A stretch of DNA of 64,000 nucleotides from an uncultured Bacteroidota bacterium (GTDB lineage Bacteria > Bacteroidota > Bacteroidia > Chitinophagales > LD1), in the NCBI GenBank assembly GCA_903919075.1, contig CAIXGR010000036.1, positions 1-64,000 of the forward strand, written 5' to 3'. Position numbers and translations under genes: made by a program. Below, piece by piece: positions 3,133 to 49,258 of the stretch; the first letter of the stretch is position 1, and each line of letters starts with the position of its first letter. The notes under the pieces were generated by a model. It saw only the letters and a program-made list of their open reading frames with translations, was not told the origin of the DNA and made no database searches.

Positions 3133-4170
3133 ATGAAAAAATATCTTTCCTACATCATCATCATTCTAATATTAGGTGGCGCTGCAACATGGCTAATTAT
3201 TAATAAAACAACCGGCACCAGCCAGTTAACCGAAAAAGCGTTTGCTATTGAAAACACCAAAGACATTACCAAAATAATTTTAACCGATACCGATAAAAAG
3301 CGAATTGAACTGAAAGACAGCAACGGTAATTGGATAGTTAATGGCCGCTACCCTGCGCGCCAGGAATTAATGGAAAGTTTGTTTGAAGAATTTAAACGTG
3401 CCACTGTGCTTAGCCCGGTACCCCGCGCCGCGCATGATAATGTAATAAGGCAAATGATGGCGCAAAACATAAAAGTTGAAGTATACAACGGCAAAGAGCA
3501 AGAACCGGTAAAAGTTTTTTACGTGGGCGGCCCTACGCCTGATCAAACCGGTACCTATATGTTGCTTGAAGTTGATGAAAAAATTTCTGAGCGCCCCTAC
3601 ATTGTTTATATACCCGGCTTGCGTGCTTATTTAACGCCACGCTTTGGCACCATTGAAGAAAACTGGCGCAGCCGCGTATTATTTAGTTATAACCCTGCTG
3701 ATATTAAATCGGTAAGCATTGAGTACCCGGGCGATGAAAAAAAATCATTCTTTTTAAATCGCCTAACAAAAGATTCATTTGAAGTACGGGCCAAAGAAGA
3801 AAAATTTGCTATCAACCAACATTACGAACAAAAATATATTCAGCAATATCTTAGTTTTTATTCATCGGTTTCTATCGAGGCATTTGATAACAGTTATGCG
3901 CTTAAAGATTCGGTAATGCAAACCATACCTTATTGCATGATAACTGTTACTACTAACGATAGCGCTACTAACCGGACAAAGATTTTTTATATGCCCGCCA
4001 GTAAGCGTAGTAAAACGCAATACGATATTAAAGGCAACCCCATGGTTTACGATGTTGACCACTACCACGCGGCTATTAACGACAATAAAGATTTTGCCGT
4101 TATTCAATACTACGTATTCGGTAAACTGCTAAGAAGTTATCAGGATTTCTTTTTTAAGCCGGGTGCTTAA
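3133..4170 (+). CDS. DUF4340 domain protein next to gldFG
   Basis: A 345-residue protein with one N-terminal membrane helix (about 5-25) and a long soluble part, outside the cytoplasm by the usual rule. The pattern DIxKIxLTDxDKKRIELKDSNGNWIVN near residues 43-70 is typical of DUF4340, a domain of repeated beta hairpins. DUF4340 proteins commonly sit downstream of GldG/ABC_transp_aux genes, as here (90-bp gap), so a role together with the GldAFG transporter is a reasonable inference; the molecular function is not known. The start ATG at 3133 gives a normal membrane anchor. Confidence 0.8.
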   Translation: MKKYLSYIIIILILGGAATWLIINKTTGTSQLTEKAFAIENTKDITKIILTDTDKKRIELKDSNGNWIVNGRYPARQELMESLFEEFKRATVLSPVPRAAHDNVIRQMMAQNIKVEVYNGKEQEPVKVFYVGGPTPDQTGTYMLLEVDEKISERPYIVYIPGLRAYLTPRFGTIEENWRSRVLFSYNPADIKSVSIEYPGDEKKSFFLNRLTKDSFEVRAKEEKFAINQHYEQKYIQQYLSFYSSVSIEAFDNSYALKDSVMQTIPYCMITVTTNDSATNRTKIFYMPASKRSKTQYDIKGNPMVYDVDHYHAAINDNKDFAVIQYYVFGKLLRSYQDFFFKPGA

Positions 4171-4189
4171 TTTACAAGTTAGAAAGGGA

Positions 4190-4639
4190 ATGGAAAATAT
4201 AATAATTGAAATAAAACCAGTTTCATTTATGCAGAGATATTTTAAAACATTTCTATTTATAATAGTTATGGTTTTGATAATACACGTGTTTGCTTTTTCA
4301 GGAGAGAAAAATGATTTTCCCTGCTATATTATATCCTTAGCGGTAGGACTTTTTTTAACCCTCAGAGCTTTTTTAGACCACAAAAATTACATTACTGAAA
4401 TAAAAGTAATGGACGGTTCTGCAGAAATTACACGATTGGAATTTAATACAGTCAAAAAATATTCTTTACCCCTAAAAGGAATTAGAGTGGTAATCACTAA
4501 GCAATTTGTAAAAGGAGACGCTTATAAGCTGGTAATAATAAGTCTGGAAAATAAAAAAATTGTTCAATGCGAGAATGGGGAATGGACCAAAGAGAATATG
4601 GAAATCACGCACAGGGCATTAATTAACTGTATACCTTAG
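4190..4639 (+). CDS. Small two-helix membrane protein, PH-like tail
   Basis: About 149 residues. Two hydrophobic helices (about 18-40 and 49-66) are followed by a roughly 80-residue beta-rich soluble tail, which resembles the membrane-anchored bacterial PH-like (YcxB) layout. I recognise no specific family. A longer reading from GTG 4163 would overlap the DUF4340 gene, but the ATG at 4190, preceded by GAAAGGG, starts a more natural protein. Base composition is more AT-rich than that of the neighbours, and no ACCGGT word occurs between 3553 and 6623. Two other small proteins in the window (49738 and 62063) share the helices-plus-PH-like architecture. Confidence 0.6.
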   Translation: MENIIIEIKPVSFMQRYFKTFLFIIVMVLIIHVFAFSGEKNDFPCYIISLAVGLFLTLRAFLDHKNYITEIKVMDGSAEITRLEFNTVKKYSLPLKGIRVVITKQFVKGDAYKLVIISLENKKIVQCENGEWTKENMEITHRALINCIP

Positions 4640-4690
4640 TTTTTTTATTTCTAGGATTGTGTCTACCTGTCTTTCCTTATCTCTGCATCA

Positions 4691-5563
4691 CTATTGCATA
4701 AAATTATACTCTCTGCTCACCGTGCCGTTTTTCACCAGTCGTACAGTATAGTGCGTATCAGTCAGCTTCTGCGGAAACGGGTTGTATCTTATACTATGGG
4801 TGCCACTTTTAAATAACTTATCCGTAAAAATGGCCTTTATCAGCTTACCCTGCTCATCGTAAAAGCCTACCGAAACTATTGCAGTATCTTTTACCATAAA
4901 AACTATGTTCCGGTCTAATTTGCAGCCGTTAAATTCTATCAGTTTGCCTCCTTTGCGTTTATCATATTCGGCAAGCAGTGCATCAAGATTTAATTTTTTA
5001 ATGTCGGCGGCCTTTTTCTGCAACTCTGTTTGAATAGCAGGGCTTTTATCTACAATAGAAACTATTGGCGCGTCATCCGACAAACTCCAAACGGCTTCCT
5101 GCGCACCGTGTATCCAATATTTTTTTGCAGCTATAAATTTTGCCATTTCAAGTAGTGCGGGGTTTGCCAAATCGGCTACTTTATAATGCAGCGATGCGTT
5201 GGGCCCGCTTTTAGTAACCTCGGTACACATGGCGTATAAATAGTTGTGCTGCTTTTCGCCGGGTTTAAGTTTCAGGTCAACAAATTGGGTTAGCAACATG
5301 GCTTGGTAGCCGGGCTCATCAGCCTGCAGCATATAGCCGGGGTCAAGCTCAAGGTTAATAGGCCCGTTGCTAAGGTTCGAAACTGTGAGTTGCATTTCGG
5401 GTATAAAGCCGTTCGAACGTAGTTCAACAGGTATGCTATCGTAAGTTGAGCCGCTTAGCTGCACCGCAACTTGCTTATTAGCAATGGCATCTTTTAAATT
5501 TACAGGGAAAACTTGCAGGCTGGAAAAAACAAATACAAGCAATAGTAGATATGTGCTTTTCAT
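4691..5563 (-). CDS. Secreted protein of unknown function
   Basis: 290 residues with a clear signal peptide (1-20, hydrophobic core LLLLVFVFSSLQVF). The N-terminal third looks like an immunoglobulin-like beta domain (short strands with N/G turns). The middle is helical and lysine-rich (about 185-215). The last 70 residues (FYDEQGKLIKAIF to YTVRLVKNGTVSREY) resemble the small beta domains at the C-terminus of envelope proteins. There is no T9SS sorting motif and no lipobox, so it is probably periplasmic. It converges on the gene ending at 4639. I do not recognise a family. Confidence 0.7.
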   Translation of the reverse strand: MKSTYLLLLVFVFSSLQVFPVNLKDAIANKQVAVQLSGSTYDSIPVELRSNGFIPEMQLTVSNLSNGPINLELDPGYMLQADEPGYQAMLLTQFVDLKLKPGEKQHNYLYAMCTEVTKSGPNASLHYKVADLANPALLEMAKFIAAKKYWIHGAQEAVWSLSDDAPIVSIVDKSPAIQTELQKKAADIKKLNLDALLAEYDKRKGGKLIEFNGCKLDRNIVFMVKDTAIVSVGFYDEQGKLIKAIFTDKLFKSGTHSIRYNPFPQKLTDTHYTVRLVKNGTVSREYNFMQ

Positions 5564-30243: not shown

Positions 30244-31407
30244 CTATTTTTCCAACTTTTTACCATCGGCATATTTTTCTGTTTTAACTAAAATGCCCTG
30301 GTCGTTGTAATAATTCCATTGGCCTTCCATTAGCGATGGTGTGCGACTTTGCACCACCATCGTTTCGTCAAGTGTCACGGGATCTGTAGTCATAACCGTA
30401 TCTCTATATATTGTAGTTGCACTGGGTTTTATGCTTCCTTCCAATCTTTTTTTTCCATCGGGGTAATATAACGTAATGGGGCCGCTCAATGCCCCGTGCG
30501 AATAGCTAATATCTGCCAGCAATTTGTCCTTATCATACCATTTAAGGTTAAAAGAATCATTAGCAAAAAACCGGTAGCGCTCTGAAAGTGACATTTTTTT
30601 ATCAGAGCGGTAAAATACATCCAGGCTACAGGTATCGCAATATGCATTACAAGTAGTTTTTATTTCCTTATCTTTTGCAAGCGCATCATAATAGTCCTGC
30701 CTTGAAATTTGCAATAAGCTATCAAAGCTTATGAAATAAGCATCCAATTGCACATAGGGCAAGCCTCCATAGATTTCAAATGTCATCGGTGTTAAGCGAA
30801 AGAGGGTGGAAGGCAAACCGGAACTTGTTTTAAATTCAGCTTCAATTTCGGTAAATTCAATCCGGTCGTGGGGGCGCAGCTTTTTAATTGCCGCACGTAA
30901 TTCAGGCGAAAACATAGGGCCATCGCACTTAATGCTAAAGGTTTCATTACCGGAATGAATTACAGCAGTATATGCGTTTACATAAACGCGCACTTCAAAA
31001 TTAAAATTTTCAACAAGCGCTACCAGGCCGGTAGAAGCAAGCAACCAGCCTTTTTGCATTCCTCCACCTTTTATCTTCCCGTTTAAAGTAATTGCGGGCA
31101 CCGGGATAGAATGAAACATAATCCGCTTAAAGTAAATAGTGTCGCCTTGCATGTTTTGAAGACATAGAAAGCGATAACCGCCCGCGTTTAATATAAGCGC
31201 CGTATCTGTTTTATGGCAGGTACCATTTTCAATGCTGGCTTCATATTCATCAGGCCGAAGCACTTTGCCATTATAAATTACCTGAACCGGGTTATCGAGC
31301 CCATAATACAAATTACCTTTTTCAGCATATATAAAGGTTTTGTTTTGCCCCTCTGCTGAAAGAGTAATTACGAGACTGAAAATTGCAAGGATAAACTTAT
31401 AGGACAT
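30244..31407 (-). CDS. Exported protein with GldM C-terminal-like domains and MORN-like repeats
   Basis: 387 residues, signal peptide 1-20. Residues about 25-225 follow the order of the last two periplasmic domains of GldM: GNLYYGLDNPVQVIYNG (GldM: a similar NxxYxGVxNP), IPVPAITLNGKIKGGGMQKGWLLASTGLVALVENFNFEVRV (core positions), then FSPELRAAIKKLRPHDRIEFTEIEA. Residues about 300-387 contain MORN-like units (GALSGPITLYYPDGKKRLEG, EGQWNYYNDQGILVKTEKY). There is no GldM membrane helix or stalk. GldM is the T9SS motor stator that reaches the outer-membrane ring; a free copy of its tip could bind the same ring. That role is inference; the alignment is by eye. Confidence 0.7.
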   Translation of the reverse strand: MSYKFILAIFSLVITLSAEGQNKTFIYAEKGNLYYGLDNPVQVIYNGKVLRPDEYEASIENGTCHKTDTALILNAGGYRFLCLQNMQGDTIYFKRIMFHSIPVPAITLNGKIKGGGMQKGWLLASTGLVALVENFNFEVRVYVNAYTAVIHSGNETFSIKCDGPMFSPELRAAIKKLRPHDRIEFTEIEAEFKTSSGLPSTLFRLTPMTFEIYGGLPYVQLDAYFISFDSLLQISRQDYYDALAKDKEIKTTCNAYCDTCSLDVFYRSDKKMSLSERYRFFANDSFNLKWYDKDKLLADISYSHGALSGPITLYYPDGKKRLEGSIKPSATTIYRDTVMTTDPVTLDETMVVQSRTPSLMEGQWNYYNDQGILVKTEKYADGKKLEK

Positions 31408-47526: not shown

Positions 47527-48090
47527 ATGCAGATAACAACCGAAAGATTAATTTTAAGGAAAGCGAAAAAAACCGATTGGCAAGATATTCTTGAAGGCTT
47601 TAGCGAATATGATGTAGTTAAAATGACCGGAGCCCCCCATCCTTACAAAAAGAAGGATGCCGACTTGTATATTAGTAACGCCATTGCAAAATGGGGAAAA
47701 AGAAGTTATTACTTCTTCATTCAATTAAAAGCCGAGAAAAAAGTAATAGGTGTAGTTGAGCTTACCGGAATAAGTAGTTTTGATGGCACCGCCAGTACAG
47801 CTTCTTGGATTAATAAAAAATACTGGCGGCAGGGTTATGTTGCTGAAGCGAAAATTGCCATAAATGATTTTGCTTTTTACAAACTTAAATTAAGACGGTT
47901 AGGTTCCGGTGTGTTTGCCACCAACAAAGCATCAAATGCCACGCAACAAAAAATGGGATATGTTTTAGAAGGCGTTAAAAGAAGGTGCCTTAAGAATAGA
48001 ACCACTGGTAAAATTCATGATGTAAACATGTACGGCCTGCTAAAGGAAAATTGGAAAAAAGCCCGAATTAAATTATTAAAGAAAGAGTAA
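47527..48090 (+). CDS. GNAT acetyltransferase, first of three tandem copies
   Basis: 187 residues, RimJ/RimL-like (Acetyltransf_3). It begins TTERLILRKAKKTDW, with SWINKKYWRQGYVAEAKIAINDFAF as the acetyl-CoA-binding strand-helix (R-Q-G-Y-x-A-E-A) and NKASNATQQKMGY towards the end. The family acetylates N-terminal or side-chain amino groups. It is followed after 9 bp by a paralogue and then a third, so the triplet looks like a tandem duplication in one operon. The shared C-terminal block TGKIHDVNMYGLLKENWKKAR is strongly conserved among the three. Substrate unknown. Confidence 0.88.
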   Translation: MQITTERLILRKAKKTDWQDILEGFSEYDVVKMTGAPHPYKKKDADLYISNAIAKWGKRSYYFFIQLKAEKKVIGVVELTGISSFDGTASTASWINKKYWRQGYVAEAKIAINDFAFYKLKLRRLGSGVFATNKASNATQQKMGYVLEGVKRRCLKNRTTGKIHDVNMYGLLKENWKKARIKLLKKE

Positions 48091-48099
48091 TCGGCCCCC

Positions 48100-48681
48100 A
48101 TGAGAGTTATACAACTAACAACCGAAAGGTTAATTTTAAGAAAGCCTAAAAAAAGCGACTGGAAAGATATTGTAGAAGGCGCAGGTGAATATGATTTGGC
48201 TAAAACATACAACATACTTCCGCACCCCTACAAAAAAAGCGATGCCGAAGCTTTCATTACTAATTCCATCAAAAATTTTGGTAAAGACAGATACACCTTT
48301 GTGGTTGAACTAAAAGCCGAAAAAAAGGTAATTGGTGTTTTGGGGCTTCGGAACATTAACCAGGTTAACAATACAGCAAATACCGATTCGTGGATTAATA
48401 AAAAGTATTGGCGGCAAGGCTACATCACCGAAGCTAAAATTGCACTGAACGATTTTGCTTTCAGCAAACTTAAATTGCGCCGGTTAGATTCTTCGGTTTA
48501 TACTACTAACAAAGCATCAAACGCAGCGCAGAAAAAAATGGGATACCGGTTAGAGGGAACTAAAAGAAAAGCTCAACGCAATGTAAGCACCGGAAAAATT
48601 CACGATGTAAATATTTATGGCCTGCTAAAGGAAGACTGGAAAAAGGCAAAGATTAAACTATTAAAAAAACAAATCGCGTAA
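48100..48681 (+). CDS. GNAT acetyltransferase, second tandem copy
   Basis: 193 residues with the same plan as its neighbours (QLTTERLILRKPKKSDW; SWINKKYWRQGYITEAKIALNDFAF; TGKIHDVNIYGLLKEDWKKAK). Against copy one it differs most in residues about 30-75, which form the acceptor side in GNATs: the HP-Y region reads ILPHPYKKSDAEAF here and APHPYKKKDADLY in copy one. That pattern suggests the copies act on different acceptors, which is inference. It ends 4 bp before the third copy. Confidence 0.88.
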   Translation: MRVIQLTTERLILRKPKKSDWKDIVEGAGEYDLAKTYNILPHPYKKSDAEAFITNSIKNFGKDRYTFVVELKAEKKVIGVLGLRNINQVNNTANTDSWINKKYWRQGYITEAKIALNDFAFSKLKLRRLDSSVYTTNKASNAAQKKMGYRLEGTKRKAQRNVSTGKIHDVNIYGLLKEDWKKAKIKLLKKQIA

Positions 48682-48685
48682 TACC

Positions 48686-49258
48686 ATGAAACTGGAAACC
48701 GAAAGATTAATTTTAAGAAAACCTAAAAGGAGCGATTGGAAGGATGTAGTTGAGGGCGCCGGCGATTACGACGTGGCTAAAATGACCAGCCATATACCCC
48801 ATCCTTATGCAAAAAAAGATGCCGAATGGTTCATTGATAATTCTATTAAAAACTGGGGCAAGGTTGTATACACTTTTTTCATTGAATTAAAATCAGAGAA
48901 AAAAATAATTGGCGCTATCGGGCTTAGGCAAATTGATACGTTTAATGGCACGGCAAGCACCGGTTCATGGATAAACAAAAAGTACTGGCGACAGGGCTAT
49001 ATGACCGAAGCCAAAATTGCAGCGAATGATTTTGCTTTTACTAAATTGAAATTAAGGCGGCTTAACTCAACCGTGTACACTCATAATAAAGCCTCAAACG
49101 CAACACAACGCAAAGTAGGGTATAGGTTTGAAGGCTGTAGAAAAAAGAGCCTTCGAAGCATGGCAACCGGCAAAATTTATGATGAGAATATGTACGGCCT
49201 GTTAAAAGAAGACTGGAAAAAGGCAAGAGTTAAACTACTAAAGCAAAAATTAAAGTAA
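48686..49258 (+). CDS. GNAT acetyltransferase, third tandem copy
   Basis: 190 residues, same family: KLETERLILRKPKRSDW, SWINKKYWRQGYMTEAKIAANDFAF, TGKIYDENMYGLLKEDWKKAR. All three copies keep the CoA-binding loop, so all are probably active. The spacing (9 and 4 bp) and strand indicate one transcript. There is no terminator hairpin after the stop. Confidence 0.88.
   Translation: MKLETERLILRKPKRSDWKDVVEGAGDYDVAKMTSHIPHPYAKKDAEWFIDNSIKNWGKVVYTFFIELKSEKKIIGAIGLRQIDTFNGTASTGSWINKKYWRQGYMTEAKIAANDFAFTKLKLRRLNSTVYTHNKASNATQRKVGYRFEGCRKKSLRSMATGKIYDENMYGLLKEDWKKARVKLLKQKLK

Follow-up and report, generated by a model that had tools for sequence, protein, structure and literature searches.

A predicted exported protein joining a detached GldM tip to a MORN-type sheet, within a wider set of detached GldM tips in Bacteroidia

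The motor behind gliding and secretion in Bacteroidota has GldM as its drive arm. What, then, would the tip of this arm be doing in a protein that lacks the motor parts and ends in a MORN-type tail? The question is raised by a gene of an uncultured Bacteroidota bacterium, on the 64,000-nucleotide stretch of contig CAIXGR010000036.1 that was analysed (here, the window). Its open reading frame stands exactly where a sequence-only reading had placed it (Table 1), and its codon use matches that of the neighbouring genes, which that of the other two frames does not. Its neighbours are carB and a trpG/pabA-like gene. The order of domains in the protein is signal sequence, D3, D4 and MORN_2-type sheet. 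Elsewhere in the window, three clearly related GNAT-like acetyltransferase genes stand in tandem (47527-49258).

Table 1. Features of the fusion gene and its product, with window coordinates
Feature	Residues	Coordinates	Strand	Sequence	Basis or remark
ORF, predicted exported GldM-tip/MORN fusion	387 aa	30244..31407	minus		
Predicted signal sequence, without lipobox Cys	~1-20	31348..31407	minus	MSYKFILAIFSLVITLSAEGQ	Sequence; model helix 3-19
GldM D3-like Ig domain	~24-97	31117..31338	minus		Profile, phmmer, structure; Pfam alone E=0.3
GldM D4-like domain	102-212	30772..31104	minus		PF12080 E=8.9e-10, tip profile, structure
Low-confidence linker	~213-246	30670..30771	minus		pLDDT mostly 45-71
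Cysteine cluster	253-260	30628..30651	minus	CNAYCDTC	Sequence
MORN_2/YwqK-type beta sheet	~247-381	30265..30669	minus		Sequence search and structure
Hairpin between MORN-like units	~333-357	30337..30411	minus	DTVMTTDPVTLDE	AlphaFold2 model

Several kinds of comparison bear on the identity of the first two domains. Pfam GldM_4th (PF12080) matches residues 102-212 with 39.7 bits, above its cut-off of 24.6 (E=8.9e-10), and GldM_3rd (PF21602) leaves a trace (E=0.3). A profile built from full-length GldM tips alone matches D3 and D4 together (profile positions 35-192, E=2.5e-22), and a phmmer search of the PDB places residues 33-190 in co-linear alignment with the solved PorM (E=0.0067). The AlphaFold2 model, computed from a 40-row alignment (mean pLDDT 82.8), lies mostly above 85 in D3 and D4, is weak in the linker, and draws the strands from 247 to 380 as one continuous meander. 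When this model was compared with the PDB by Foldseek, the best seven matches were PorM/GldM chains (3.0e-10 to 2.9e-8), and the first unrelated ones, Ig proteins, began at 1.3e-4. A control fold used an alignment of the five fusion proteins described below, without any GldM; its pLDDT was 59.9, and seven PorM/GldM chains were again the best matches (5.1e-9 to 3.2e-7). This control is strong, although not fully independent, because AlphaFold may have learnt PorM in training. The likeness to the last two periplasmic domains of GldM that had been seen by eye is borne out by profile and structure, over residues ~24-212 and not 25-225 as first drawn. The basic helix supposed to end the GldM part gives way in the model to two strands that close D4, the last helix being 168-175.

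Pfam finds neither GldM_1st nor GldM_2nd in the window protein, although it finds them in the two full-length GldMs that this genome encodes. The GldM motif PRQKMINMMYLVLTA is missing from the N-terminus, where a short signal-like helix leads directly into D3; the loss of the membrane and stalk parts had been correctly noted. An NCBIfam search with the window protein gave no match at all, the GldM equivalog TIGR03517 (cut-off 180 bits) included. The gldKLMN operon lies on contig C73, separate from the contig of the window gene. We conclude that the window protein is a GldM/PorM D3-D4 tip without membrane helix, D1 and D2, and that it is not a GldM, given the missing transmembrane helix, D1 and D2, the lack of a match to the equivalog model and the position of the gene outside the operon. 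It also lacks the C-terminal CTD sorting domain of T9SS cargo: no CTD family of Pfam or NCBIfam matches, and the C-terminus is the MORN sheet. The missing membrane and stalk parts might suggest a decayed or spurious gldM paralogue fragment beside a chance MORN-like frame, but the frame of 387 residues is intact and has a signal sequence of its own, and three other genomes encode the same fusion, which makes this so improbable that it can hardly be entertained.

The tail was compared separately. The window protein has no match to Pfam MORN_2 (PF07661, cut-off 29.6 bits). Residues 228-387 alone, searched in a small local database, match standalone proteins at 1.4e-13 to 3.5e-7, and 50 shuffles of the same residues gave 0 matches there. 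These standalone relatives carry several passing MORN_2 repeats, three of the proteins passing Pfam MORN_2. When the structure was searched against viral models, MORN-repeat proteins headed the named matches, and it was the tail that carried them. The tail is a MORN-type meandering sheet related in sequence to MORN_2 proteins, and the attachment of a MORN-like part described by the sequence-only reading stands, although the window protein itself stays below the Pfam cut-off.

A hairpin insert of like type is found in the G024 fusion proteins and in the standalone MORN protein L086. At L086:4148-4864 and similar loci, exported MORN_2-like proteins have a D-T-x(4)-[DN]-P-x-T hairpin between repeat units, as in the fusion tail, and GldN too has a similar stretch. 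Because the window hairpin DTVMTTDPVTLDE resembles DTVMQINPLTMEEE of GldN, some tblastn matches crossed the gldM stop codon into gldN. A similarity of the window protein to GldN was considered and dropped, as a short look-alike in a protein with no GldN Pfam match. Near the site of the cysteine cluster, the other fusions carry CPCTC, CPCQC, CSC or spaced cysteines, with CxC in three of the five fusions.

How widespread is this architecture? Among the genomes searched, it was found complete in five proteins from four genomes: the window protein and four others, at 22-26% identity, from three further genomes (G006, G024 and G079). Since identity is only 22-26%, the fusion proteins evolve fast. 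The G006 protein (390 aa, 26% identity) aligns nearly full length with the window protein, and G024 has two tandem copies (392 and 487 aa). The G079 protein (394 aa), in a genome from another family of the same order, matched, at 9e-27 over positions 6-395, a profile built without it; it alone passes the GldM_3rd, GldM_4th and MORN_2 cut-offs, the last with 29.8 bits against 29.6. A larger class sample gave no additional fusion among the matches listed. A scan of genome contigs with the window protein as query gave no match, and with the G006 homologue as query it returned only G006 itself, an uncultured Bacteroidetes MAG. Literature searches (GldM with MORN; GldM-like C-terminal proteins; MORN_2 in Bacteroidetes) returned nothing relevant. 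The fusion is rare and patchy in its distribution. The neighbours of the fusion genes are not conserved, being uvrC in G006, ribosomal protein genes in G024, and cfa and a peptidase gene in G079. Phylogeny failed to place the fusions, whose branches are long: they are among the most divergent tips and form no single clade in a poorly resolved tree.

Strong divergence, a window gene with no gld linkage, and this rare and patchy occurrence would fit a GldM-type Ig pair reused as a generic periplasmic scaffold off the T9SS ring, with the function residing in the MORN sheet. Against such reuse, D3 and D4 are kept together, in the same order, in all five fusions, and each of the four fusion-bearing genomes encodes full-length GldM and GldN. 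We regard the scaffold as a somewhat unlikely explanation.

The fusions are not the only GldM tips found apart from the motor. Exported D3-D4 proteins of 210-290 aa without MORN are frequent across the class Bacteroidia, and we found no name for them. PF12080 was detected in short frames of 5 of 59 other genomes in a 60-genome class sample, a count that misses many tips too divergent for the model. In G383 a run on one strand reads gldL-gldM-gldN-gldM2-tip-tip-tip-gldN2 (L147, G383:C1:5458000-5470000), and in its relative G302 two free tips directly follow gldM2. At L145 (G527:C12), positions 4096-5463, two tandem lipoprotein-like GldM tips stand beside SpoIIE-type phosphatase proteins. The genome of the window protein has a second full-length gldM on C94 (L047:6392-8011); a second gldN was looked for in the same genome, which gave a single GldN match, and none was seen. 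Detached GldM tips form a widespread, overlooked set, some of which are encoded within operons of the motor or next to a sigma factor, and the window protein is a new arrangement of known modules inside this broader class.

Since the protein is not a GldM, what could its tip contribute? In Porphyromonas gingivalis, PorM D4 alone suffices for binding to PorN, while binding to PorK additionally requires D2-D3 (PMC5790014). PorM D4 has been cross-linked to PorN (PorM S460-PorN A241; PMC12421860), and models put it into the cleft between PorN copies, on a poorly conserved surface (PMC12635249). From these PorM D4-PorN data, a detached D3-D4 could dock on the ring and leave the MORN tail free for another partner. 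Ring binding by the window protein, which the sequence-only reading had proposed, is therefore partly supported and plausible by analogy, and because the modelled PorM-PorN surface is poorly conserved, sequence is unable to confirm the contact between tip and GldN. We tentatively prefer, as a reading that may well prove wrong, a soluble periplasmic accessory of the T9SS and gliding machinery. Its D4 would dock on the outer-membrane GldK/GldN ring at the GldN face, where GldM also makes contact, and its MORN sheet would bind a second partner, so that the protein might serve as a ring adaptor alongside GldM rather than as an arm of the motor.

In favour of the adaptor are the D3-D4 matches to GldM/PorM, the recurring architecture, and the presence of GldM and GldN in all four genomes. 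Related free tips lie between gldM2 and gldN2 in G383 and beside gldM2 in G302, and the G006 fusion is 7.6 kb from a gldMN pair on the same contig. Against it, the window gene has no gld neighbours, the neighbours of the fusions are unconserved, the tip is divergent, and the window D3 is without a partner D2, the domain through which PorM dimerises and swaps domains (PMC5790014). A soluble tip might instead compete with GldM for the GldN cleft and throttle the motor. Such competition is what one would expect of a D4 that has no motor parts, if it binds, and PorM D4 alone does bind PorN, but a brake of this kind leaves the conserved MORN tail unexplained; we consider it very unlikely.

The adaptor is not the sole possibility for detached tips, because their occurrence in a sigma-factor operon points to another use. 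In the genome of the window protein, a tip gene on C86 comes after genes for an ECF sigma factor and a 539-aa protein with a single transmembrane segment, which has no Pfam match. Proteins of this transmembrane type occur at E<=1e-10 in 94 of 247 genomes of the class. At the best 30 such loci a tip gene is present in 23, a sigma gene in 27 and both in 20; with a profile from full-length GldMs alone, 22 of those loci still give E<0.01. Trio loci, with a transmembrane protein of ~540 aa and all in the class Bacteroidia, are L148 (G000:C86), L149-L163, L166-L168, L170 and L172-L174. Judged by its gene order, the sigma/TM/tip trio resembles a signalling unit with a link to the T9SS ring, and its conservation is the most striking by-product of the analysis.

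The different use thus suggested for other detached tips speaks against the adaptor. The trio in the same genome and the tip genes at most of the best transmembrane-protein loci would agree with a sensor or reporter, in which the detached tip signals ring occupancy or T9SS state and the MORN sheet replaces or contacts the signalling partner. In P. gingivalis, an ECF sigma factor is known to control T9SS genes, through PorXY-SigP (PMC7712824). The window gene, however, has no adjoining sigma or transmembrane partner, and the function of the sigma operon is read from gene order alone, so that a sensor seems unlikely for the window protein. More broadly, detached tips may form a ring-reading class that plugs the GldN cleft where the motor arm would otherwise sit. 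They would relay the ring's state by way of the single-TM partner to a sigma factor or, where a MORN tail is fused, to a partner bound there, perhaps while held to GldK through the cysteine cluster in the manner of SprF/PorG. This generalisation is speculative and, in our judgement, quite unlikely to hold.

Whichever role applies, the findings touch on questions that are open in the field, namely how the ring is driven by the tip of GldM, and in what way a cell tunes or senses its motor. The GldM-GldN contact is known so far from modelling, two-hybrid tests and cross-links, and a natural tip-only protein lends itself directly to binding, competition and structural studies of this contact. Literature searches returned no description of detached GldM tips. 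The wider set, sigma-factor operon included, suggests layers of T9SS control.

The protein can be compared with several known systems. SprF/PorG tails are linked to GldK by a disulfide (PMC12635249) and have in common with the window protein a cysteine cluster, of the form CxC in three of the five fusions; the window protein itself has CxxxCxxC and not CxC, it is not an outer-membrane barrel, and any disulfide is putative. With standalone Bacteroidota MORN_2/YwqK-like proteins (L082, L086, L088) it shares a C-terminal sheet whose homology shows in the sequence (best E=1.4e-13), and with L086 the hairpin insert as well; unlike the window protein, these stand alone without a GldM tip. The free-standing D3-D4 proteins have, as it does, an exported tip apart from the motor parts, but they lack the MORN sheet, and some are lipoprotein-like or lie in gldLMN or sigma-factor operons. 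With GldM/PorM (PDB 6EY4, 6EY5, 6EY6, 7CMG), the fold and order of D3-D4 are common, at 20-22% identity in the structure alignment; in contrast to them, the window protein dispenses with the transmembrane helix and D1-D2, has a signal sequence of its own, adds a MORN sheet and is encoded outside the gldKLMN operon.
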